Shown in pieces: positions 1,646-25,046 of a DNA stretch of 33,169 nucleotides. The stretch comes from Bacteroidia bacterium (lineage in GTDB: Bacteria; Bacteroidota; Bacteroidia; B-17B0; Aurantibacillaceae). Each line of letters begins with the position of its first letter. Position 1 is the first letter of the stretch. Below the pieces are notes generated by a model that was given only the letters and a program-made list of their open reading frames with translations, made no database searches and was not told the DNA's origin. Where the stretch lies: contig JANYIQ010000076.1 in the NCBI GenBank assembly GCA_025362575.1, positions 1 to 33,169 of the forward strand, written 5' to 3'. Position numbers and translations under genes: made by a program.

Positions 1646-2980
1646 TTAGTATTTGTAATTAAAATAGAATGTCTGCTTAACCAACACGCCATTGCTCGAT
1701 TGCGCAGGCTCCCAATTTGGCATGTTAAGAATGATCTTCTCGATCTCTTTTTTGGAATCTGCACATTTACTTTCTGTCAGGTCTGCTTTCACATCAGTCA
1801 CTTTCCCTTTTTCGTTCACCGTTAGGTCAATTCGAAATGCTTTGTTGTATGCGATAAGACTTGTTTTTAGTTTTTCGTTCTTATCGATCTCTGTTTTTAT
1901 ATAGTCGATGTGATTATTGAACTTAGCGGTTTTAAAGAAACTGCTTCTGCGTAAAGAAACGGCACTCGCATCTCCGGCTGCAACACCTGAAGTAGCGGTG
2001 GTTTTAGGAGCATTTCCTTCTTCGTGCTTTGCTTCCAGTTCATCCATGCTTACTTTTTCGGCAGGAGCTTCTTTTGCTCTTTCGGGTTTATTGTTCTTAG
2101 CAATTTCAGTATTAGCAACACCTGCAGGAGCTGCAGATTGTGCAGCACTATTGCGATTATCATCTTCTCTGGTTTTTGACGAAGCTTTTTTAGCCTTTGT
2201 TTTTTCTTCGCTTTGATTTTTATAGTCTGATTTACTGCTTACTTCAGCAAGCTTTGCATCTTTACCAAGATCGGGCTGATCGTCTCTTTCTTTGCGCTCT
2301 GTCTTTTTATTTTCGCCATCCATTAATCCGCCGCCAAGTCCTTTACCGCCACTCGCAATACCTTCAGCATCTTGTTTTTGTTCTTCGGCAACAATTGGTG
2401 CAGCTGTTTTTGTAAGCGGCCCCTTTGTGATCATTCTTGGTGTTGGTTCGTTTTGAGAACTGGCATCCGCATCCTTTGCGGGTTTACGATCATCGTTGCT
2501 TAATTTATCTGCCACTGCTTTTTCGGCAGGAGGAGCAGGAGGCATTGAATTTTCTTTCTTGGGTTCTGCTTCAACAGTTTCGGAACTTGAAACGCCGCTG
2601 CCTATGGCAACTTCTTTTTCCAGATCAGCATTCGTTGAATTCTGAATTTCCTGACTTGTTTCGGGTTTGTAAGCTAAACTTTCTTCTTTTTTTGTGAAGT
2701 CATTAAAAAATAAAACACTCAAACCTACTACCAATACAAGGCCTGCAGCCATTGCATAATACATGAACTTCGGTTTTTCACCGGTTTTATTCATGTACTT
2801 TTCCTCAATTTTTTTATTGAGCTCAGCATTTAATTTTGTGGCCAGTTCATTATTATCCAAAGCGGCAAAGCCCTCGAAGGCTTCTTTTTCAAAGTCATCG
2901 AGCCCCTCGCTGTTTCCCGTTTTCACACGGTTCAACAATTCATCGCCATCGATATTATGATTATTAATTTTCTTTGTCAT
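1646..2980 (-). CDS. Membrane-anchored putative anti-sigma factor with TonB-like C-terminal domain
   Basis: The 444-residue product has a soluble N-terminus (1-70) and one transmembrane helix (about 74-92). A long low-complexity linker rich in Lys, Glu, Ala, Ser and Pro (about 95-345) follows. The C-terminal 95 residues contain VNEKGKVTDVKADL and MPNWEPAQ with an NGVLVKQTF strand, which resembles the TonB C-terminal fold. The start overlaps the end of the ECF sigma gene by 17 bases, the usual layout of a sigma/anti-sigma pair. I infer that the cytoplasmic part binds the sigma factor and the periplasmic part senses or contacts an envelope partner. No zinc-binding anti-sigma motif is visible, so the anti-sigma role rests on topology and gene order. 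Confidence 0.65.
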   Translation of the reverse strand: MTKKINNHNIDGDELLNRVKTGNSEGLDDFEKEAFEGFAALDNNELATKLNAELNKKIEEKYMNKTGEKPKFMYYAMAAGLVLVVGLSVLFFNDFTKKEESLAYKPETSQEIQNSTNADLEKEVAIGSGVSSSETVEAEPKKENSMPPAPPAEKAVADKLSNDDRKPAKDADASSQNEPTPRMITKGPLTKTAAPIVAEEQKQDAEGIASGGKGLGGGLMDGENKKTERKERDDQPDLGKDAKLAEVSSKSDYKNQSEEKTKAKKASSKTREDDNRNSAAQSAAPAGVANTEIAKNNKPERAKEAPAEKVSMDELEAKHEEGNAPKTTATSGVAAGDASAVSLRRSSFFKTAKFNNHIDYIKTEIDKNEKLKTSLIAYNKAFRIDLTVNEKGKVTDVKADLTESKCADSKKEIEKIILNMPNWEPAQSSNGVLVKQTFYFNYKY

Positions 2981-3557
2981 TTAATGATTCACCTAATTTT
3001 AACTTCAAATTTCGTTTACCGTTTTGTATGTGACTTTTTACTTCATTAGCCGAAAAGCCTGTTATTTCTATTATTTCGTTGTACGATTTGTTCTTATAAT
3101 AAAACAATTCAATACATAATTTCTGTTCTTTATTGATCGTATTTAAGGCCGTTTCCAGCTTTAAAATGGTTTTCTCCTTTTCTTCCGCATTATTATGATG
3201 AGAAGAATCCCCGGAATCCATAAATAAGATGTTATTGTCCTGAAGTTCAATGTCTTTCTTAAGTTGCGACTGCTTTTTACGGAGCTCCATCAGGCACATG
3301 TTCTTCGAGTATGTATAGAGCCAGCTTTTAAAGAATTCGATCTTATGCTTTTTGAGGTCGGAACTGAGCTTCTCGAAGATCTGCATCACTACATCCTGAG
3401 CATCATCCTCGTTTTTAAGGTATTTTATGCACAAACCCAGTACCAGATGCGAATAGCGCTTGAAGATAATGCCAAGAAATACCGAGTCGTTGCTCTCGCA
3501 ATAACGGGTTATCAGCTCATTATCGGTATACGAATTATATTCGCTTTTATGCAGCAT
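2964..3557 (-). CDS. ECF-type RNA polymerase sigma factor
   Basis: This 197-residue protein has the two-domain layout of sigma-70 family ECF factors. Region 2 spans about residues 28-96, with DDAQDVVMQIFEKL at 51-64 and a basic, aromatic stretch (FKSWLYTYSKN) typical of promoter melting. After an acidic, His/Ser-rich linker comes region 4 at about 133-187, with the helix-turn-helix YNEIIEITGFSANEVKSHI recognising the -35 element. It would direct transcription of an unknown regulon, probably including its own operon. The overlapping downstream membrane protein is its likely regulator. Its promoter region overlaps that of the divergent YfiR-like operon. Confidence 0.93.
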   Translation of the reverse strand: MLHKSEYNSYTDNELITRYCESNDSVFLGIIFKRYSHLVLGLCIKYLKNEDDAQDVVMQIFEKLSSDLKKHKIEFFKSWLYTYSKNMCLMELRKKQSQLKKDIELQDNNILFMDSGDSSHHNNAEEKEKTILKLETALNTINKEQKLCIELFYYKNKSYNEIIEITGFSANEVKSHIQNGKRNLKLKLGESLNDKEN

Positions 3558-3697: not shown

Positions 3698-4222
3698 TTG
3701 AAACGTTTGTTTAAATATGTGATTGTGTTTGTGGTTATTGCCTCCGGCTTTAGCTTCCGCGACAACGTTGATACAAACGCCAAAATAAAGGCAGTATTTT
3801 TATACAACTTTACACGTTATTTTGAGTGGCCCGATGCCAAAAAATCCGGCAATTTTCAGATTCAGGTAGTAGGTACCAATGCCAATCTGATCAAAGAATT
3901 GAACGAAGTAGCTATCAAGAAACAAGTTGGAAACCAGAAGATTGAGTTAATAAATACACCCATTTTCGATGGTTCAAAACCCCCACATATGTTGTTCTTA
4001 CTTCCTGATGCTTCAAAGGCTTTACCGGATGCCATCACTAAATTAAAAGGAAAAGGCACATTAATTATTTCTGAAAAAGAAGGAGCAGCTAAAACCGGCT
4101 CTGCAATAAATTTTGTGGTTATAGATAATAAGCAGAAATTCGAATACAGTAAAAACAGTGCGGTTAAAGCCGGTTTAAAAACTAGTGAGGATTTTAAAAG
4201 TTTAGCAATTGCAGTAGATTAA
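3698..4222 (+). CDS. YfiR-like (DUF4154) periplasmic protein
   Basis: The 174-residue product starts with a signal peptide (KRLFKYVIVFVVIASGFSF) and continues with the DUF4154 pattern: KAVFLYNFTRYFEWP near the N-terminus, FQIQVVG, a central LLPDAS turn, GTLIISEKEG, INFVV and a C-terminal LKTSEDFKSLA. In Pseudomonas, YfiR is a periplasmic inhibitor of the diguanylate cyclase YfiN. No cyclase is present here; the operon instead ends in a membrane-bound SpoIIE phosphatase. The start codon is TTG; it gives the positively charged signal-peptide beginning, and no suitable ATG follows. The TPR gene begins three bases after the stop, so co-expression is very likely. The partner assignment is inference. 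Confidence 0.85.
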   Translation: MKRLFKYVIVFVVIASGFSFRDNVDTNAKIKAVFLYNFTRYFEWPDAKKSGNFQIQVVGTNANLIKELNEVAIKKQVGNQKIELINTPIFDGSKPPHMLFLLPDASKALPDAITKLKGKGTLIISEKEGAAKTGSAINFVVIDNKQKFEYSKNSAVKAGLKTSEDFKSLAIAVD

Positions 4223-4225
4223 AAA

Positions 4226-5122
4226 ATGAAGATGCGCAATACATATTTAATTGTGGTTCTTAGTCTGGTTTCAGCACTAAGCACTTCCTTGTATGCGCAA
4301 AACGATAAGTTTAACAGAGCACAGGAATTGTATGCTGCAAAAAATCCTGAAGCTGCCAAACCTGTAATTGATTCTGTTGTTCGCCATGCTGAAACCAAGA
4401 AAGATCCAATGGCTTGGGCACTCAGAGGTTATATTTACTACGATATTTATAAAAAAACAGATAAACTTAAACTGAATTCAGCGTTAAGAGATTCTTCTGT
4501 TAAGTCGTTAATGATCGCGCAGAGTTTGAAACCGGATGCTGAAATTCGCAAGAACATTGATGTTTTGGTTAAAAACTATGCTCAAGGGTATTATTCAATT
4601 GTTAAAACCTTACTTCAGGATTCTTCGAACTTTGAAAGAAGTCAGACCGCATTTAAAAAATATAAAGAATTGTATTCAAAAGTAGATTCTACATTTGATT
4701 TCAAGCAAAAAGACATTGAGTATTATTCGGCAGTAGGTTCTCAGTTCTCTGATAAATTCAATAACGATAATACAAAATCTCAGTTTGGTGAGATCGGAAA
4801 AGTAGCTTTAATGAAAGTAATTGAACTTGATCCTAAGAACATCAGCGCCAATATTAATTTGGGTATCATTTATTATAATCAGGGGGTTAATCTGATCAAT
4901 CAGATGGATCTGGATACACCGCTTGATAAACTGGAGATCATTCAGGATAACTCAGCGAAGTTATTCAAACAGTCCCTTCCCTTCATGAATAAAGTATACC
5001 AACTCGATCCTAAAAACTTAAAGGCTTTAGAAAGTTTGAGACAAATTTATCAGGCCTTGAACGATTCAGAAAAATCGATAGAATTTAATAAAAAGCTGGA
5101 AGAAGCTAAAAAAGCAAAATAG
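4226..5122 (+). CDS. Secreted tetratricopeptide repeat protein
   Basis: The 298-residue product has a signal peptide (cleavage probably around residues 24-25, YAQ) and then an almost entirely helical sequence with TPR-like units. The clearest are around residues 29-75 (RAQELYAAKNPEAAKPVID), 195-225 (ALMKVIELDPKNISANINLGIIYYNQG) and 250-290 (MNKVYQLDPKNLKALESLRQIY). It is likely periplasmic and probably a protein-interaction scaffold. It lies between the YfiR-like gene and the phosphatase gene with gaps of 3 and 15 bases, so all three should be one transcript. A role in linking the YfiR-like protein to the sensor is inference. An in-frame ATG two codons downstream is an alternative start. Confidence 0.85.
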   Translation: MKMRNTYLIVVLSLVSALSTSLYAQNDKFNRAQELYAAKNPEAAKPVIDSVVRHAETKKDPMAWALRGYIYYDIYKKTDKLKLNSALRDSSVKSLMIAQSLKPDAEIRKNIDVLVKNYAQGYYSIVKTLLQDSSNFERSQTAFKKYKELYSKVDSTFDFKQKDIEYYSAVGSQFSDKFNNDNTKSQFGEIGKVALMKVIELDPKNISANINLGIIYYNQGVNLINQMDLDTPLDKLEIIQDNSAKLFKQSLPFMNKVYQLDPKNLKALESLRQIYQALNDSEKSIEFNKKLEEAKKAK

Positions 5123-5137
5123 GTATATTAAAAAGTA

Positions 5138-6916
5138 ATGAATTTCAGATTTACAATTGGGCGGAGAATTGGGACGGGTTTCGGGACTTTAATTGTACTC
5201 ACTATAATTGCATTTGTACTTACTCTTTCCATTGTAAGCGACAGTAAGAAAAAAACCACTACCGTGGTAGATCAGGTGGCACCGAGTGTTGCAGCCTTAA
5301 AGGAGTTCAACTTTTTATTACAGCGTTCACAAACCCTTATCTCTAAATGGTATTACAGTAAGAACGTAAACGATGGCGGGCGCGACGAATTAAATAAGTT
5401 AATTACGTCCGATTATCCCGAGAGAAGAACTGAACTTCGTGAGCTGGCCAAAAGCTGGACAAAAGAAGAGTTCAGAGTGTTCAACACCATTATGAGTAAA
5501 ACAGATGCCCTGTTCTTTACCTATCAGCAGGATATCATGATCCCATTGAATTCACTCGATTCTTATGAAGATGTTTCCATTTATTTTTTGGCAAAAGATG
5601 CTTTAGACAATGCAGAAGATGATCTCAAAATAATTTATTCTAATCTAGATGAATTAATACGAAATAAAAAACTGGCTGCCGAAGAGGTAAAGAAGAGCAT
5701 GTTCAAGTCGCTCGATTTCTTACAGCGCTTTGTGGAGTTATTAAGCATTACTCTTGTTATCGGAGGTTTATTGGTGGCGTTCTTCACGGCGCGTTCCATT
5801 GTAAAACCGGTTCAGTTACTTAAGAAAATGCTATTGTCAATGGGCCTGGGTATTTTACCAAAAGAACGCATCGATTATAGAAACGATGAAGTTGGTGAGA
5901 TGGGAACCGCTCTGAATAACCTCATTGAATCGATGGAGAGTACTACCGAGTTTGCAAAACAAACCGGAACCGGAAATTTCGAAGCCTACTTTAAACCTTT
6001 AAGTGATGATGATACTTTAGGTCATGCATTGCTTCGAATGAGAGATGGTTTAGCTGAGAACGAACGTGTACTCGAAAAAAAGGTAATTGAAAGAACGGAA
6101 GAGGTAGTAAGACAGAAAGAAGAAATTGAAATTAAAACCGGAGAACTTCAGATATTATTTAAACAGGTAACAGATAGTATTCACTACGCGAAACGTATTC
6201 AAGAAGCGATCTTACCGCCGAAACCATTGTTCGATCAGTTATTACCGAATTCATTCGTGTTGTTTAAACCAAAAGATATTGTAAGCGGTGATTTTTACTG
6301 GCTCGATAAAAAAGGTGATCAGGTTTATTTTGCAGCTGTAGATTGTACAGGTCACGGGGTTCCCGGCGCCTTCATGAGTATTGTAGGATCCAATTTATTA
6401 AAGGATACAGTTAACAATACAGATCTTGAACTTCCTTCTCATATCATGGATAAACTCAACGAAGGTGTTGTTTCTACATTACACGTTGGAGTTACCGAAA
6501 AGCAAACAAAGGATGGCATGGACATGACCCTTTGCGCGCTTAATTATAAAACATTAGAGCTTCAGTTTGCAGCGGCATATAATCCTTTATACATCATTCG
6601 CGATGGACAGCTGCTGCAACATAAAGCAGATAAGTTTCCTGTTGGTGCATTTGTTGGCGAAAAACAAAAGTTCACCAACAATAAAATTCAACTGCAAAAA
6701 GGCGACATGATCTATATTTTCTCCGACGGTTATGCCGATCAGTTTGGCGGACCAAGAGGTAAGAAATTCATGGCAGGTAACTTCAGGAATTTATTATTGG
6801 AGATGAGTAAACTTCCTGCCGATCAGCAAAGACAAAAGCTGGATTCTACCATTGAAAGCTGGCGCGGAACATTAGAGCAGGTGGATGATGTATTGATCAT
6901 TGGAGTTAAGATTTAA
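5138..6916 (+). CDS. Membrane sensor with HAMP and SpoIIE-type PP2C phosphatase domains
   Basis: The 592 residues comprise a transmembrane helix (about 14-34), a helical periplasmic sensor of four-helix-bundle type (35-198), a second transmembrane helix (199-217), a HAMP domain (218-270) and a HAMP-like second unit (270-310). A coiled coil (305-345), the linker motif DSIHYAKRIQEAILPP (346-361) and a SpoIIE/PP2C serine phosphatase domain to the C-terminus follow. Metal-binding motifs are intact: SGDFYW, VDCTGHGVPGAFMS (about 401-414), DGMDMT, FSDGYADQ and QVDDVL. The enzyme would dephosphorylate a Ser/Thr-phosphorylated partner, often an anti-sigma antagonist, in response to an envelope signal. 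No antagonist or kinase is encoded nearby. The YfiR-like and TPR proteins upstream are candidate periplasmic inputs. Confidence 0.93.
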   Translation: MNFRFTIGRRIGTGFGTLIVLTIIAFVLTLSIVSDSKKKTTTVVDQVAPSVAALKEFNFLLQRSQTLISKWYYSKNVNDGGRDELNKLITSDYPERRTELRELAKSWTKEEFRVFNTIMSKTDALFFTYQQDIMIPLNSLDSYEDVSIYFLAKDALDNAEDDLKIIYSNLDELIRNKKLAAEEVKKSMFKSLDFLQRFVELLSITLVIGGLLVAFFTARSIVKPVQLLKKMLLSMGLGILPKERIDYRNDEVGEMGTALNNLIESMESTTEFAKQTGTGNFEAYFKPLSDDDTLGHALLRMRDGLAENERVLEKKVIERTEEVVRQKEEIEIKTGELQILFKQVTDSIHYAKRIQEAILPPKPLFDQLLPNSFVLFKPKDIVSGDFYWLDKKGDQVYFAAVDCTGHGVPGAFMSIVGSNLLKDTVNNTDLELPSHIMDKLNEGVVSTLHVGVTEKQTKDGMDMTLCALNYKTLELQFAAAYNPLYIIRDGQLLQHKADKFPVGAFVGEKQKFTNNKIQLQKGDMIYIFSDGYADQFGGPRGKKFMAGNFRNLLLEMSKLPADQQRQKLDSTIESWRGTLEQVDDVLIIGVKI

Positions 6917-6918
6917 CC

Positions 6919-7338
6919 TCACTTCTTTTTATACATTTTTACAGTGTAACCATGTTCGTAAAAGCGTGGTTTTTTTATTTCCATTACTGTATTGGTTGCA
7001 AAAGTAACATGATTACCACCATAACCAGACAAGTCACAAACAAACTCTTCGATTGATTTGGGTTTAGAAACAATTGTAAACTTTTTCTTTTCAATATAAA
7101 AGTGCCATGGACCAACCTTAAAATCACCTTCAAATCTCGGACCACCATGACAATCACTTGAATTACCTTGTACGCTATAGGTTGCATAGCTATTTGCTTT
7201 GATCTCGATTACATCGATGCAACCGTTACCATTACCGTACCAGGTTCCGACATAAACATTTCCTTCACTTACCTTTTTACAGGTGTTAAAAAATAAAAGA
7301 GACAGGAAAAGACAAGTATTTACTTTAAGTCTTATCAC
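6919..7338 (-). CDS. Small secreted or lipoprotein-like protein, paralogue of the gene at 153-587
   Basis: The 139-residue product has a hydrophobic N-terminus ending in FFNTCKK. The Thr-Cys-Lys is the same as in the paralogue, which points to possible lipidation of the Cys despite a non-classical lipobox. The mature part contains VGTWYG, an EIKAN strand, Cys-His-Gly-Gly, PRFEGDF, HFYIE, VSKP and a basic C-terminal KMYKKK. Several of these have counterparts in the other copy in the same order. The family is not one I recognise. The start codon is GTG, with no ATG near the N-terminus. The gene converges on the phosphatase gene with a two-base gap and no visible terminator. Confidence 0.7.
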   Translation of the reverse strand: MIRLKVNTCLFLSLLFFNTCKKVSEGNVYVGTWYGNGNGCIDVIEIKANSYATYSVQGNSSDCHGGPRFEGDFKVGPWHFYIEKKKFTIVSKPKSIEEFVCDLSGYGGNHVTFATNTVMEIKKPRFYEHGYTVKMYKKK

Positions 7339-19366: not shown

Positions 19367-20035
19367 ATGGTTATTTCCTTTACCGAAGAAAATTACTTAA
19401 AAGCTATTTATACACTTTCAAATCAGTATGATTGGGTGGAAGTAAGTACGAATCAAATTTCGGCGCATTTAAAAAATAAAGCGGCTACGGTTACTGATAT
19501 GCTGAAGCGTTTGTCGGAAAAGAAGTTGATAGCTTACAAACCTTATCAAGGGGTTAAATTAACAGATAAAGGAAAACGTACTGCTATCACTGTTGTGAGA
19601 AAGCACCGTTTGTGGGAAGTTTTTCTGGTGGATAAATTGAATTTTAAATGGGATGAAGTTCATGATATTGCCGAACAACTTGAACACATTCATAGCGATG
19701 AACTTATTGAAAAATTGGATGATTTTTTGGGCCGCCCGAAAAGTGATCCGCACGGAGATCCTATTCCCGATGCCAATGGAAAGTTTTCAAATAAGAGATC
19801 GATACTGTTATCATCAGGCGTTAAGAAAGGAAGTTATGTTGTTACCGGAGTTACTGATCATTCAACTTCGTATTTGCAGTACTTAACGCAATTAGGAATT
19901 AGCCTTGGTTTTCAATTAAAGATAGAGGAAATAAACGAGTACGATCAGTCTTTAAAAATAAAGATCAATAATAAACAAAGTAATTTCATCAGTCACAAAG
20001 CCGCTTCACATTTATTAGTGGAGCAAAGATCATGA
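19367..20035 (+). CDS. mntR: DtxR/MntR-family metal-dependent transcriptional repressor
   Basis: The 222-residue protein has an N-terminal winged helix (about 1-72, STNQISAHLKNKAATVTDMLKRLSEKKLI) and a metal-binding dimerisation domain (75-135). That domain carries His80, Glu84, His99, Glu103, Glu106 and His107 in the pattern of DtxR family ligands. A C-terminal FeoA/SH3-like domain occupies about 140-215. Glu103 stands where DtxR has a metal-binding Cys, as in manganese-responsive MntR. It would bind Mn(II) and repress uptake genes from the palindrome just upstream. The stop overlaps the mntH start (ATGA), so the two are translationally coupled. Manganese specificity is inferred from neighbour and ligand pattern. 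Confidence 0.9.
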   Translation: MVISFTEENYLKAIYTLSNQYDWVEVSTNQISAHLKNKAATVTDMLKRLSEKKLIAYKPYQGVKLTDKGKRTAITVVRKHRLWEVFLVDKLNFKWDEVHDIAEQLEHIHSDELIEKLDDFLGRPKSDPHGDPIPDANGKFSNKRSILLSSGVKKGSYVVTGVTDHSTSYLQYLTQLGISLGFQLKIEEINEYDQSLKIKINNKQSNFISHKAASHLLVEQRS

Positions 20036-21906
20036 ATTTAAATAAAGGTAAATCTTTAGAAGAAGTAAACGCTTCGGTAAACACCGAATCAAAGCGGGGC
20101 ATAAGAGGTTTGTTAGCCTTTCTTGGGCCGGCTTATATGATCAGTGTTGGTTACATGGATCCGGGCAACTGGGCCACAGACATTGCCGGTGGAAGTCAGT
20201 TTGGTTACAGTTTATTGTGGGTATTGATCATGAGTAACATTATTGCTTTGTTGTTGCAAAGTCATAGTGCGCGTTTAGGAATTGTTACCGGAAAAGATCT
20301 GGCGCAGGCAAGCCGAGAAAGTTACCCGCGTTTCGTGAATTTGTTTTTATATCTGCTGGCCGAGATCGCCATCGCGGCTTGTGATCTGGCAGAAGTGATC
20401 GGGATGGCCATTGGTATTCACTTGTTATTTCCTCAAGTGCCTTTAGTGTGGGGAGTGATCATTACTGTTTTGGATAGTTTTGTATTGTTATTCTTATTAA
20501 ATAAAGGAATACGAAAACTCGAAGCTTTTATTATTTCATTGGTTCTTTTGATCGGTGTTTCATTTTTAATTCAATTGATTATAGCCAAACCTAACTTTGT
20601 GGAAGTGGCAAAAGGGATCATTCCCGGAATCGCCAACGAAGATGCTTTGTATATTGCAATTGGTATCATTGGTGCAACGGTTATGCCGCATAATTTATAT
20701 CTGCATAGTTCTCTTGTTCAAACCCGAAAATTCAAACGCACAGAACCGGAAATAAAAAAGGCAATAAAATTCAATCTGATCGACAGTACAGTTGCTTTAA
20801 ATCTTGCCTTATTTGTAAATGCCGCCATTTTAATTCTTGCAGGCGCTTCTTTTTTTACGAACGGATTAAATAACGTAGCCGAAATTCAGGATGCTCATCG
20901 TTTATTAGAACCTATGTTAGGAAGCACTTTAGCACCTTTATTATTTGCAGTGGCTTTGATTGCGGCAGGACAAAGCTCAACAATAACGGGCACTCTGGCA
21001 GGGCAGGTGATCATGGAAGGCTATCTGAATCTACGATTGGCTCCATGGATCAGAAGATTAATGACACGATTGATCGCCATCATTCCGGCCTTATTAACTA
21101 TTTTAATTTTAGGTGAAAGCAGCACAGGAAAATTATTGATACTAAGTCAGGTTATTTTAAGTTTGCAATTGGGTTTCGCCGTCATTCCATTAATTCATTT
21201 TGTGAGTGATAAAAAGAAGATGGGTGAATTCGCCATTCCGATGTGGCAAAAAGTGGCGTCATGGCTTGCTGCATTGATCATAATCGGATTAAACATTAAA
21301 TTGGTTTACAGTGTTTTGGTCGATTGGATCCTTTCTTCTGAGAGTCCGCTCATGATAAGCTTCACCATTGTGCCGCTTTGTATCTTTTGCCTGATCATGC
21401 TTTTGTATATTACCTTTGCACCTGTATTTGCATCGCATCATCAGCATAAAAATTTCGATTTTCATGGTGTTGTGCAGGCTTTACAGTTTGATAAAATAGA
21501 AAATTACAAGAACATTGCCATTTCAGTGGATTTTAGTAAAAGCGATAATAAGGCGATCTCAAAGGCTTTAAAGCTTGGGGGTAAGGAAGCCCGTTATTTA
21601 CTGGTTCACGTTTTAGAAAGCACCAATGCTGTTGTTTATGGTGAAGATGCTTTTGATATGGAACGCGAGCAGGATTATAAGGATCTGAAGCTTTATGTAG
21701 ATCAGATCAAGGAAAAAGGATTTGATTGCGATATGGCTTTAGGATTTGGTAATCCAAAAACAGCTATACCTTATCTGGTAAATAAAAATAATTGCGACAT
21801 GCTTGTTATGGGTACACATGGTCATAGAACCATTAAAGATATTTTACTCGGAACAACAATTGAAAGTGTAAGGCACAACATTAAAGTGCCTTTGGTTCTG
21901 GTTTAG
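20032..21906 (+). CDS. mntH: NRAMP-type manganese transporter fused to a C-terminal UspA domain
   Basis: The 624-residue protein joins an NRAMP proton-coupled divalent metal importer of the inner membrane (about 25-470, many hydrophobic helices) to a cytoplasmic universal-stress-protein domain (about 489-624). NRAMP signatures are DPGNW at 43-47 (metal ligands Asp43, Asn46) and ATVMPHNLYLHS at 215-226 (Ala215, Met218). The UspA part ends with GTHGH-x9-GTT-type ATP-binding residues (MGTHGHRTIKDILLGTT) and VPLVLV. The tail may sense ATP or stress to tune transport; that is inference. Its start overlaps mntR by four bases. Its stop overlaps the stop of the convergent sensor phosphatase gene by four bases. 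Confidence 0.95.
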   Translation: MNLNKGKSLEEVNASVNTESKRGIRGLLAFLGPAYMISVGYMDPGNWATDIAGGSQFGYSLLWVLIMSNIIALLLQSHSARLGIVTGKDLAQASRESYPRFVNLFLYLLAEIAIAACDLAEVIGMAIGIHLLFPQVPLVWGVIITVLDSFVLLFLLNKGIRKLEAFIISLVLLIGVSFLIQLIIAKPNFVEVAKGIIPGIANEDALYIAIGIIGATVMPHNLYLHSSLVQTRKFKRTEPEIKKAIKFNLIDSTVALNLALFVNAAILILAGASFFTNGLNNVAEIQDAHRLLEPMLGSTLAPLLFAVALIAAGQSSTITGTLAGQVIMEGYLNLRLAPWIRRLMTRLIAIIPALLTILILGESSTGKLLILSQVILSLQLGFAVIPLIHFVSDKKKMGEFAIPMWQKVASWLAALIIIGLNIKLVYSVLVDWILSSESPLMISFTIVPLCIFCLIMLLYITFAPVFASHHQHKNFDFHGVVQALQFDKIENYKNIAISVDFSKSDNKAISKALKLGGKEARYLLVHVLESTNAVVYGEDAFDMEREQDYKDLKLYVDQIKEKGFDCDMALGFGNPKTAIPYLVNKNNCDMLVMGTHGHRTIKDILLGTTIESVRHNIKVPLVLV

Positions 21907-24900
21907 AACTTAACGCTTATTAAAAGGACGTCGTCAACCTGCTCGTACTCACCTTTCCAACCGTAAAACTCTTCATTGATCTTTTCATCCTGTTCTTTGG
22001 TTGTAAGAGGGGCAATATTCTGTAAAAAGCCTGCTAAGCGCATGCTCGAATATTTTTTACCTCTATCGCCACCTTGCTGATCAACTATTCCATCTGAGAA
22101 TAGGAATAAATTATCTCCCGGCTTCACTTCCCAGATGTTTAGTACGAAAGGTTTTTGTATGTCTTTAAATGCACCGCCGATAGAGTAAGGCGGACTTTTA
22201 AATTTCTGTAATTCACCATCTCTGTAAATTAAAACAGGTCTAACAGCAGCGCTGAATTCCAATATTTTTGTAGCAGGATTAAATTTAGCAATAGATAGAT
22301 CCATTCCGTCCATGTTAATTTCTCCTTCACGAGAGTGCTGATTAAGAACTTTATTTACCTGGGCATCCAGTTTATGTAATATCTCAACCGGATTTAATTC
22401 CTGGTTAGCAGTAACTATCTCATCGAGCAGGGTAGAGCCAATGAACGACATGAATGCTCCCGGTACACCGTGACCCGTACAATCAACTGCAGCAATGAAG
22501 GTGTACTTGTCTGTTTTTTTGTACCAGTAAAAATCACCGCTAACAATATCCTTAGCTCTGTAAAAACAAGAAACGTCAAAACCTTCTCTAATATATGCGT
22601 CTAATGGCAACAGGGCTTCCTGAATGCGTTTGGCGTAATTGATACTATCGGTAATATCTTTGTTCTTTGACTTGATCTCGCCAAAAAGAACTTCGATCTT
22701 TTCTTTTTCTTCAACGATCTCAGAGGTTTTTTGTACAATGATCTCTTCCAGTTTCTTCTGTTCGGCTAATAATTTTTTGGTTCTGATCTTTATTAAACTA
22801 TAAACAGATACCGAAAGAACTAAAACCAGGATGATGTAGAACCAATAGTTTTTCCAGAATGGTTTTTTAATGGTGATTGTAAAAGTAACAGGGTTAGAAT
22901 TCCAAAGGTCATCGTTGTTGGAAGCGTAAAGTAAAAGTTTATACTCGCCATCCTTTAGTTTTGGAAATTGTATTTTGCGGGTTTCACGCGTTAGCGGTTG
23001 CCACTCGTCTTGCAAACCTTCGAGTTTGTATTTGTATTTAACATTGGAGGGATCAGTTAAACAAACCCCAACGAAATCAATGGCCAGATCATAAGAGCTG
23101 TAGCTTAAAATGGTATCGCGTGTAGAAGATAGTTTCGTTCCGTTCAATGTGATCTGTAAAATATTGAGCGCAGGTTCTACTTCATTAAAATGTTGCTTGT
23201 TGGTATTTACTCTCGAAAAACCATTTGAGGTTCCAAATAAAATATCATGCGATTCGGTATCGTAAAAGAAAGAGTTCTCAATGAATCGTGTTTGTAATAG
23301 ATCGGATCCGGCAACAATCTTGTTAAAATTCTTTTTATTCTTATTCTTGTAAGAAATGCCATTCGTGTGGCCCACCCAGATCCCGTTTTTGAAATCTGCA
23401 ACTATCTCATAACAGTAATTCGATTTTAAACCGTTCTTAGTAGTAAAATGCTCAAAGAATTTACCGTTATATTTAAAAACACCATCTCCTATGGAAGCGA
23501 TCCATATGTTGTTGTCTCCGTCTTCGCACACAACTGTTGTGTTAAACTTATCGAGACCAGCTACATCCTCAAATTTTCTCACGGTTTTAAGATCATCAAC
23601 ATAATAAATTAATGTACCCGGAGAGCAAACCCACATGTGTTTTTTAGAATCGATGAAAATGAAACGAACGTTGTTATGAAGTAAACCCGACTCTGTATTT
23701 AATAACTGACTCTCAAAATTATCGGCGTTAATAACATATAAACCCGAAGTGGTACAGGCATAAATATTCTTTTCGTCTGAACTTAATGAGTTAACTGAAA
23801 TTTTGGCGTTACGCGTTATGAGCGGGATCTGAGTTACCGTTTTGAATAAAGTATCACTTTTAAAAAGTTCGCCTTCTGAAGAAGATAATATCAAACTGTT
23901 CTTATAACGTATCAGACAATTGATGCTTTTTTTTGCGAGTTTAGGGTGCGTTGCAAAATCAACCTTATCATCATGAAAATAACCGATTCCTTTTTTTGTT
24001 GCCACTATGATCCGGTTATTCAATTTAACGGTAGCGTTTACTGGTAGGTTGTGACCTTCGTTATCAATGATGTCGTAGTAACAATACAACTCACTATTCA
24101 ATTGCTGTAATCCGCTTCCGTATGTTCCGATCCATAAATTATCTTCACGGTCAATTAAAATACTTTCAATGGTATTTGATGTTAAACCGTTCTTAGTAGT
24201 AAAATTTAAAATGGTTTTTGTTTCAGGCGTTATTTTGTAAACACCATTTTCGGTAGTAGCTACATAAATATTGGCGAAGCGGTCGGTGATCAGCTTTTTA
24301 TAAACCGATCCGTCATTCTTTTTTAGTTTGAAAGTATCAACAGCATTTAATTTACCGTTGTTTTGAAAGGTTAAGATACCGGATTGATTATCGGCAACTA
24401 CTATCAGGTCTTTGGCAGTATTTAGCCGCATCAATACAGCTTCTTTAAGTTTTATGATAGAATTGGTCTCATATTTTTTGTTCAATAAGTTCTGGATCTT
24501 GATCGAGTAGATTCCGTCGGGCTTTAATAAATATAATTCATCTTTTACAACAGCAATGCTTAACACCTCATTGAAATTATCATTTTCAATGTTTGTATAA
24601 GCGGTGGTAGCGTAGTTGTATAAAATGAATCCGGTGTTATTCTTTAAAAAAACGTAGTTGTTAGGTGATAATTCCGCTATCTGAATGATCTTTGATCCGA
24701 TCTCTTCTTTGTAAACAACCTGTTCGATCAGTCCTGAATTATGAAGCATGCTCACTTTCCCTTCCTGATGACCAAGCCACATAACATTCTTAGAATCGCG
24801 GAAAATGGCGGTTATGAAATCGTGAGCAAGACCTCTCTCTTTATTGAATATCTGAAAAGAATTCCCGCCATAGGTAGCCAAACCATTGGCCGTTGCAATG

Positions 24901-25046
24901 TAAATGAATCCACGGTTATCCTGACTCAGTTCATTTACAAAAGACTGTGGCAAACCATCGTCTTCTGTATAATTTTTGAAGGAATAGATCTGCGAGTAGC
25001 CCGAATAACCAATGAAGCAAAGTAACAGGAAAATTATTTTTTTCAT
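21903..25046 (-). CDS. Periplasmic Reg_prop/Y_Y_Y sensor fused to a SpoIIE-type phosphatase
   Basis: The 1047 residues start with a signal peptide (about 1-18, YSGYSQ). Two seven-bladed-propeller-like regions of Reg_prop repeats (about 20-640; motifs such as LSQDNRGFIYIATANGL and DREDNLWIGTYGSGL) follow, then a Y_Y_Y immunoglobulin-like domain (652-729), one transmembrane helix (about 735-753) and a coiled coil (760-799). The linker DSINYAKRIQEALLP precedes a SpoIIE/PP2C domain (about 800-1047) with SGDFYW, VDCTGHGVPGAFMS (854-867), MDGMDLS, FSDGIVDQ and QVDDVL. The periplasmic half is that of hybrid two-component sensors, but the kinase is replaced by a phosphatase. It is the last gene of the adhesin cluster, so it may sense adhesin or polysaccharide state; the target protein is unknown. 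Confidence 0.92.
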   Translation of the reverse strand: MKKIIFLLLCFIGYSGYSQIYSFKNYTEDDGLPQSFVNELSQDNRGFIYIATANGLATYGGNSFQIFNKERGLAHDFITAIFRDSKNVMWLGHQEGKVSMLHNSGLIEQVVYKEEIGSKIIQIAELSPNNYVFLKNNTGFILYNYATTAYTNIENDNFNEVLSIAVVKDELYLLKPDGIYSIKIQNLLNKKYETNSIIKLKEAVLMRLNTAKDLIVVADNQSGILTFQNNGKLNAVDTFKLKKNDGSVYKKLITDRFANIYVATTENGVYKITPETKTILNFTTKNGLTSNTIESILIDREDNLWIGTYGSGLQQLNSELYCYYDIIDNEGHNLPVNATVKLNNRIIVATKKGIGYFHDDKVDFATHPKLAKKSINCLIRYKNSLILSSSEGELFKSDTLFKTVTQIPLITRNAKISVNSLSSDEKNIYACTTSGLYVINADNFESQLLNTESGLLHNNVRFIFIDSKKHMWVCSPGTLIYYVDDLKTVRKFEDVAGLDKFNTTVVCEDGDNNIWIASIGDGVFKYNGKFFEHFTTKNGLKSNYCYEIVADFKNGIWVGHTNGISYKNKNKKNFNKIVAGSDLLQTRFIENSFFYDTESHDILFGTSNGFSRVNTNKQHFNEVEPALNILQITLNGTKLSSTRDTILSYSSYDLAIDFVGVCLTDPSNVKYKYKLEGLQDEWQPLTRETRKIQFPKLKDGEYKLLLYASNNDDLWNSNPVTFTITIKKPFWKNYWFYIILVLVLSVSVYSLIKIRTKKLLAEQKKLEEIIVQKTSEIVEEKEKIEVLFGEIKSKNKDITDSINYAKRIQEALLPLDAYIREGFDVSCFYRAKDIVSGDFYWYKKTDKYTFIAAVDCTGHGVPGAFMSFIGSTLLDEIVTANQELNPVEILHKLDAQVNKVLNQHSREGEINMDGMDLSIAKFNPATKILEFSAAVRPVLIYRDGELQKFKSPPYSIGGAFKDIQKPFVLNIWEVKPGDNLFLFSDGIVDQQGGDRGKKYSSMRLAGFLQNIAPLTTKEQDEKINEEFYGWKGEYEQVDDVLLISVKF

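Follow-up and report, generated by a model that had tools for sequence, protein, structure and literature searches.

A YfiR-like protein encoded with a TPR protein and a HAMP-SpoIIE phosphatase in a conserved operon of Bacteroidia

Introduction

YfiR is a periplasmic regulator known from biofilm signalling. In the YfiBNR systems of Pseudomonas and Escherichia coli, a DUF4154 protein (YfiR), a HAMP protein with two transmembrane helices and a third envelope protein are encoded in one operon, ordered yfiR-dgcN-yfiB in E. coli. Here we describe an operon of similar make-up at positions 3698-6916 of a 33,169-nucleotide stretch of DNA (the window; contig JANYIQ010000076.1 of assembly GCA_025362575.1) from a Bacteroidia bacterium of the Aurantibacillaceae, in which a YfiR-like protein and a tetratricopeptide repeat (TPR) protein accompany a SpoIIE/PP2C phosphatase in place of a GGDEF protein.

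The account of related systems given here draws on passages of four papers (PMC3375315, PMC4655355, PMC7647112 and PMC12143880). YfiR-YfiN cores were reported to carry GGDEF-EAL, histidine phosphotransfer (HPT) or histidine kinase (HK) outputs and were called modular, with a methyl-accepting chemotaxis protein (MCP) output named in the discussion (Malone 2012; PMC3375315); the main text makes no mention of SpoIIE. On the phosphatase side, SiaA of the SiaABCD system shares two transmembrane helices, HAMP, a coiled coil and PP2C with the window phosphatase and is its closest solved structure, although SiaB, SiaC and SiaD are missing from the window operon, and the SiaA literature covered describes no YfiR-like partner. 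For linker-controlled PP2C phosphatases of the RsbU/RssB type, a 2025 eLife paper proposed that coiled-coil linkers allow sensors to be exchanged among phosphatases, kinases and cyclases (PMC12143880); the system described here differs in taking its input from the periplasm and in exchanging a sensor that is linked to DUF4154. A search of the open-access literature, subscription papers being outside it, found no paper that joins YfiR or DUF4154 with SpoIIE.

Results

The operon consists of three co-directional open reading frames separated by gaps of 3 and 15 bases. In order, they encode two secreted proteins, one YfiR-like and one with TPRs, and a membrane-bound HAMP-SpoIIE phosphatase. The initial annotation had read the operon in this way; its reading frames were confirmed, and the Pfam matches agree with it. 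The features are as follows.

3698..4222, + strand: YfiR-like (DUF4154) secreted protein, 174 aa, with a PF13689 match and an N-terminal hydrophobic stretch
3782-4204, + strand: DUF4154 domain of the YfiR-like protein (Pfam PF13689)
4226..5122, + strand: secreted TPR protein, 298 aa, from Pfam TPR models and AlphaFold2
5138..6916, + strand: membrane phosphatase, 592 aa (transmembrane helix, periplasmic four-helix domain, transmembrane helix, HAMP, coiled coil, SpoIIE/PP2C)
5234..5731, + strand: periplasmic sensor domain of the phosphatase (residues 33-198), a family defined by alignment A5
5783..5938, + strand: HAMP domain of the phosphatase (residues 216-267; PF00672, E 1.6e-7)
6314..6910, + strand: SpoIIE/PP2C catalytic domain (residues 393-591 by Pfam, the SiaA alignment beginning at 320; PF07228, E 1.8e-17)

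The gene order is strongly conserved, and many uncultured Bacteroidia carry the operon. The YfiR-like protein was found in 48 of 60 relatives, and among the best 80 profile matches on contigs the TPR gene is next in all 80 and the phosphatase third in all 76 with enough contig. Pooling the fetched loci, with neighbourhoods called by a simple open reading frame caller and 29 loci with an identical TPR protein dropped, gave 105 distinct YfiR-TPR pairs; the phosphatase follows in 99, five are cut by a contig end and one (L101) has none. In the genome of the last, another DUF4154 gene (L115) stands two genes away from a SpoIIE protein that shares the sensor domain of the window phosphatase. The expectation that this subfamily would stand beside SpoIIE phosphatases elsewhere was thus borne out, and conserved order rules out chance adjacency of the three genes. 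One record bearing the Bacteroidia operon, CAJCJB010000130.1 (L189), is labelled Candidatus Saccharibacteria, probably wrongly.

The first protein matches PF13689 over positions 2-141 of 143 (E 5.9e-26, 91.7 bits against a cut-off of 24.9). Searched against the Protein Data Bank, its family profile gave weak matches to YfiR (E 0.025-0.05) that ranked below a chance-level match to Cps2A; homology was therefore taken from the direct comparison of the profile (A1) with E. coli YfiR (probability 95, E 4e-8). The gene begins with TTG, and its exact start is uncertain because the frame is open for 185 codons. Two cysteine pairs are conserved in YfiR (PMC4655355); the window protein, unlike YfiR, lacks them, with no cysteine anywhere in its 174 residues. 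A quick, midpoint-rooted tree of 110 DUF4154 domains places the 45 of the operon type in a single group (SH-aLRT, an approximate likelihood ratio test, 96).

The second gene product matches TPR_17 and TPR_19 above the Pfam cut-off (best E 1.9e-6), is modelled by AlphaFold2 as an all-helical superhelix (mean predicted local distance difference test, pLDDT, 92.7) and has TPR proteins as its top Foldseek matches. A24 and Q25 are almost invariant among 30 sequences and look like a signal-peptidase I site, and no lipobox was seen in the window protein. Its place in the operon is taken in YfiBNR by a different protein, the OmpA-type outer-membrane lipoprotein YfiB, and identity with YfiB was rejected from the TPR fold and from profile A2, which gave a probability of 0.3 against E. 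coli YfiB. A phylum-wide search with the TPR profile returned mainly unrelated TPR proteins; besides the window, only G102 exceeded 100 bits among the matches listed.

The third protein matches HAMP and SpoIIE, and its AlphaFold2 model (mean pLDDT 79.4, predicted TM-score 0.52, with the coil poorly defined) runs from a transmembrane helix through a periplasmic four-helix bundle, a second transmembrane helix, HAMP and a coil to PP2C. The nearest PP2C structure is 6K4E, SiaA of Pseudomonas aeruginosa, to which Foldseek gave a TM-score by target of 0.90. The PP2C domain superposes on 6K4E (Z-score 30.2, root-mean-square deviation (rmsd) 2.0), the lack of other folds in the superposition list, which PP2C fills, carrying no weight. 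It also aligns with SiaA (E 4.2e-33), and the aspartates of the metal site, D385, D402, D530 and D584, are invariant in 33 orthologues (alignment A3). On these grounds, which place the protein in the SpoIIE/PP2C family by fold and metal ligands, the enzyme looks active. It falls outside the NCBIfam SiaA model NF038263, scoring 194.5 bits against a cut-off of 700.

The initial annotation had compared the topology of the phosphatase with that of YfiN. The two transmembrane helices, periplasmic sensor and HAMP domain stand, whereas the sensor itself is a four-helix bundle unrelated in sequence to CHASE8. E. coli DgcN has the CHASE8 domain PF17152, which the window phosphatase lacks; profile A5 gave a probability of 0.3 against DgcN, and, the model being helical, a CHASE8/PAS domain of the YfiN kind was rejected. 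The domain is common to the window phosphatase, to other phosphatases (L104, L110, L118 and more) and to kinases near DUF4154 genes (L225, L114, L107, L109, L242, L211 and L112), and P49, W71 and Y143 (window numbering) are invariant in the alignment of 31 members. No Pfam family shown fits more than two of the 31, even at E 0.1, and NCBIfam does no better; 4HB_MCP_1 is absent from the Pfam matches of the window phosphatase and from the families shown for the 31 sensor rows. Because 4HB_MCP_1 does match below threshold in two full-length kinases (L225 and L242), and residues 41-191 of the sensor model superpose on the ligand-binding domain of MCP2201 (5xub; Z-score 15.7, rmsd 2.0, 138 residues), the domain is predicted to be a divergent four-helix-bundle sensor without a Pfam or NCBIfam model of its own. 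It would share its fold with the 4HB_MCP sensors of chemoreceptors, from which it differs in lying below the Pfam cut-off, in its own conserved P, W and Y and in its linkage to DUF4154.

That linkage is close. In 60 genomes the domain gave 54 matches in 44 genomes, all 44 of which also carry DUF4154; four of the remaining 16 have DUF4154 without the sensor and 12 have neither. The genomes are related and the profile derives from neighbours of DUF4154, so the Fisher value for this co-occurrence is not to be read literally. For 47 of the copies a DUF4154 gene is found within 5 kb; five of the other seven are at contig ends and two (L313 and L315) are truly apart. In the window's own genome, where SpoIIE gives 46 matches in 4.3 Mb (some being contig-end fragments of one gene), only the window locus carries the sensor among 30 SpoIIE loci inspected, and a further sensor-bearing SpoIIE gene adjoins a TonB receptor-DUF4154 pair (L104).

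Other DUF4154 loci show what else can occupy the output position. Our survey took 40 class loci and 20 phylum loci, a few per family and chosen non-randomly, and covered two genes on either side of DUF4154, kinases being called by motif and five kinase fusions confirmed by Pfam. The class set comprised 16 loci with TPR and sensor-SpoIIE genes, one with sensor-SpoIIE alone, one SpoIIE fusion, two with a kinase and a SpoIIE gene, seven with a kinase (three bearing the sensor domain), two with the sensor only, ten with nothing and one without a called DUF4154 reading frame; the phylum set had nine kinases, five kinase fusions, four loci with nothing, one without a called reading frame and a single TPR-SpoIIE locus, which belongs to the window's class. 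In the loci surveyed, phosphatase coupling is thus confined to the window's class and kinase coupling is wider. One locus, L215, has at least two DUF4154 genes in tandem, the search giving three close together in that genome.

DUF4154 and SpoIIE also occur in one chain, both above their Pfam cut-offs, in four genomes (L111, L121, L122 and L241). As read from the sequences, a signal sequence precedes DUF4154, which is followed by a long coiled coil, a single hydrophobic segment, a further coiled coil and SpoIIE; five proteins from other classes are built alike, with a histidine kinase as output. Such fusions argue strongly that evolution couples DUF4154 to phosphatase and kinase outputs. They bear on an alternative in which the genes are merely co-transcribed and the YfiR-like and TPR proteins serve unrelated functions in the envelope: adjacency by itself is not interaction, but the fusions, together with the attachment of separate DUF4154 clades to the same sensor domain, make this improbable.

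An exchange of outputs is visible beside TonB receptors. Next to a TonB receptor-DUF4154 pair, L104 (in the window's genome), L110 and L240 have a sensor-SpoIIE gene in divergent orientation, and in L109 and L112 that slot is occupied by a sensor-HisKA_2 kinase. Across the two outputs the first ~330 residues of the receptors are 34-47% identical and the TonB receptors 46-63%. The window phosphatase is 32-34% identical to the three SpoIIE proteins over almost its whole length, L104 being cut by a contig end, and 27-28% identical to the two kinases over residues 5-348. The proposal that the YfiR module had been reused to control dephosphorylation is supported by conserved order, fusions and the lack of GGDEF described below, with one amendment: because the sensor is not that of YfiN and is common to DUF4154-linked histidine kinases, the visible exchange is between kinase and phosphatase, not cyclase and phosphatase.

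The output side was examined by genome inventory. GGDEF was matched in none of six family genomes, the window's included, as against eight of 14 control genomes. A further idea, modelled on YfiBNR, is that the YfiR-like protein holds a diguanylate cyclase in check at another place in the cell. It draws on the homology to YfiR and founders on this absence of GGDEF from 6/6 genomes; we reject a cyclase as its target and regard this explanation as having almost no chance of being right. All six genomes matched SiaC, DUF6272/SiaB, HATPase_c_2 and STAS, with eight SiaC and five DUF6272/SiaB matches in that of the window (G000), where SpoIIE, DUF6272 (SiaB-like) and SiaC-family genes cluster at G000:C129:2537-5038 and G000:C92:17143-19099. 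The window's genome has both SiaB/SiaC and RsbW/STAS-type genes. From these matches, Ser/Thr partner switches are predicted to be present in the family genomes without a terminal cyclase, and as there is no GGDEF match, SiaC in the window's genome must have a target that is not a SiaD cyclase. A GKK motif is frequent among the SpoIIE proteins of this genome regardless of their neighbours and, being so widespread, is uninformative on substrate.

Upstream of the operon lie two genes on the opposite strand, the first of which is not proposed as part of the module.

2964..3557, - strand: extracytoplasmic function (ECF) sigma factor, divergent neighbour of the operon (Sigma70_r2, r4_2)
1646..2980, - strand: probable anti-sigma factor, partner of the ECF sigma gene, assigned by position; one hydrophobic segment, no Pfam match

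The operon could regulate this pair, with the phosphatase or its periplasmic partners acting on the anti-sigma factor. Among 103 operons whose upstream gene is visible, 55 have a divergent ECF sigma gene, mostly with an anti-sigma gene behind it; against this, the other 48 lack it while the phosphatase is kept in 99/105, and other DUF4154-sensor contexts are without such a pair, so that we consider regulation of the pair unlikely.

Other genes of the window include, directly behind the operon and convergent with it (6919-7338, - strand), a small protein of 139 aa with a lipoprotein-like start and no Pfam match. At 21906-25046 (- strand) a 1047-aa protein combines two-component regulator propeller repeats and Y_Y_Y, a sensor layout usual for hybrid kinases, with SpoIIE at its C terminus, which makes it the window's second case of a swapped output. 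At 19367-21906 (+ strand) an iron-dependent repressor with a FeoA domain adjoins a fusion of an Nramp transporter and a universal stress protein domain.

Discussion

From genomic evidence and predicted structures, we propose that the three genes form one envelope-signalling system. The periplasmic YfiR-like protein would bind the four-helix-bundle sensor of the phosphatase and thereby alter the signal that reaches the paired PP2C domains by way of the second transmembrane helix, HAMP and the coiled coil, in a direction that may be either activating or inhibitory. The TPR protein may provide a second periplasmic input, binding or presenting the YfiR-like protein as YfiB does YfiR, and the output would be a dephosphorylated Ser/Thr on a partner-switch protein, for which the SiaC and STAS types are the likeliest. 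Taken as a whole, from docking and control of activity through modulation by the TPR protein to a SiaC- or STAS-type substrate, this scheme is probably correct. We hold with somewhat less assurance, though still as the likelier case, that DUF4154 and the four-helix-bundle domain are a cognate receptor pair that Bacteroidia freely combine with either Ser/Thr phosphatases or histidine kinases.

Several observations weigh against the scheme. The linkage of sensor and DUF4154 is partly ascertained, as profile A5 was built from proteins neighbouring DUF4154, and the two sensor copies that stand apart (G043 C72 and G050 C15) do not adjoin a DUF4154 gene; the ten class and four phylum loci with nothing listed above have neither kinase nor phosphatase within two genes. 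The substrate is uncertain, because the window contains no SiaC, SiaB or STAS gene and because a lysine (K542) takes the position of F612, through which SiaA contacts SiaC; in view of this substitution and of the widespread GKK motif, the contact loop was rejected as proof of substrate. Nor need a model of inhibitor release hold, since a fused DUF4154 domain cannot be sequestered like YfiR.

The most serious competitor gives the YfiR-like protein another role. Periplasmic binding proteins are known to dock on sensor kinases, as TorT does on TorS, and the YfiR-like protein might likewise be an activating co-receptor for a small molecule, docking on the helical bundle of the sensor, and not an inhibitor. 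The sensor resembles the helical bundles of chemoreceptor ligand-binding domains, other DUF4154 genes adjoin TonB receptors, DUF4154 is itself the outermost input domain in the fusions, and YfiR resembles a substrate-binding domain of ABC transporters (PMC4655355). Yet YfiR, the best-studied relative, acts as a repressor (PMC3375315), and no ligand is known for the YfiR-like protein; we view the co-receptor as a tentative alternative, clearly less probable than the scheme set out above.

The window system, with docking and control of the phosphatase by the YfiR-like protein as its proposed core, fits both the modular view of YfiR and that of linker exchange, and goes beyond them in having PP2C as its output, another receptor domain, a TPR protein as partner and relatives in which the parts are directly fused. 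It would extend YfiR-type signalling, so far tied mainly to cyclic di-GMP, to protein dephosphorylation in a clade without GGDEF in the genomes searched, and would provide a defined, predicted periplasmic partner for one SpoIIE phosphatase out of the dozens that are orphans in such genomes. A sensor domain family for which neither Pfam nor NCBIfam has a dedicated model is also defined and supplied with a candidate partner, while the swap of kinase and phosphatase at one locus is a natural experiment on the exchange of receptor outputs. If DUF4154 and the sensor are indeed a cognate pair, exchanging the receptor's C-terminal half could route one periplasmic signal to a partner switch or to a two-component pathway.

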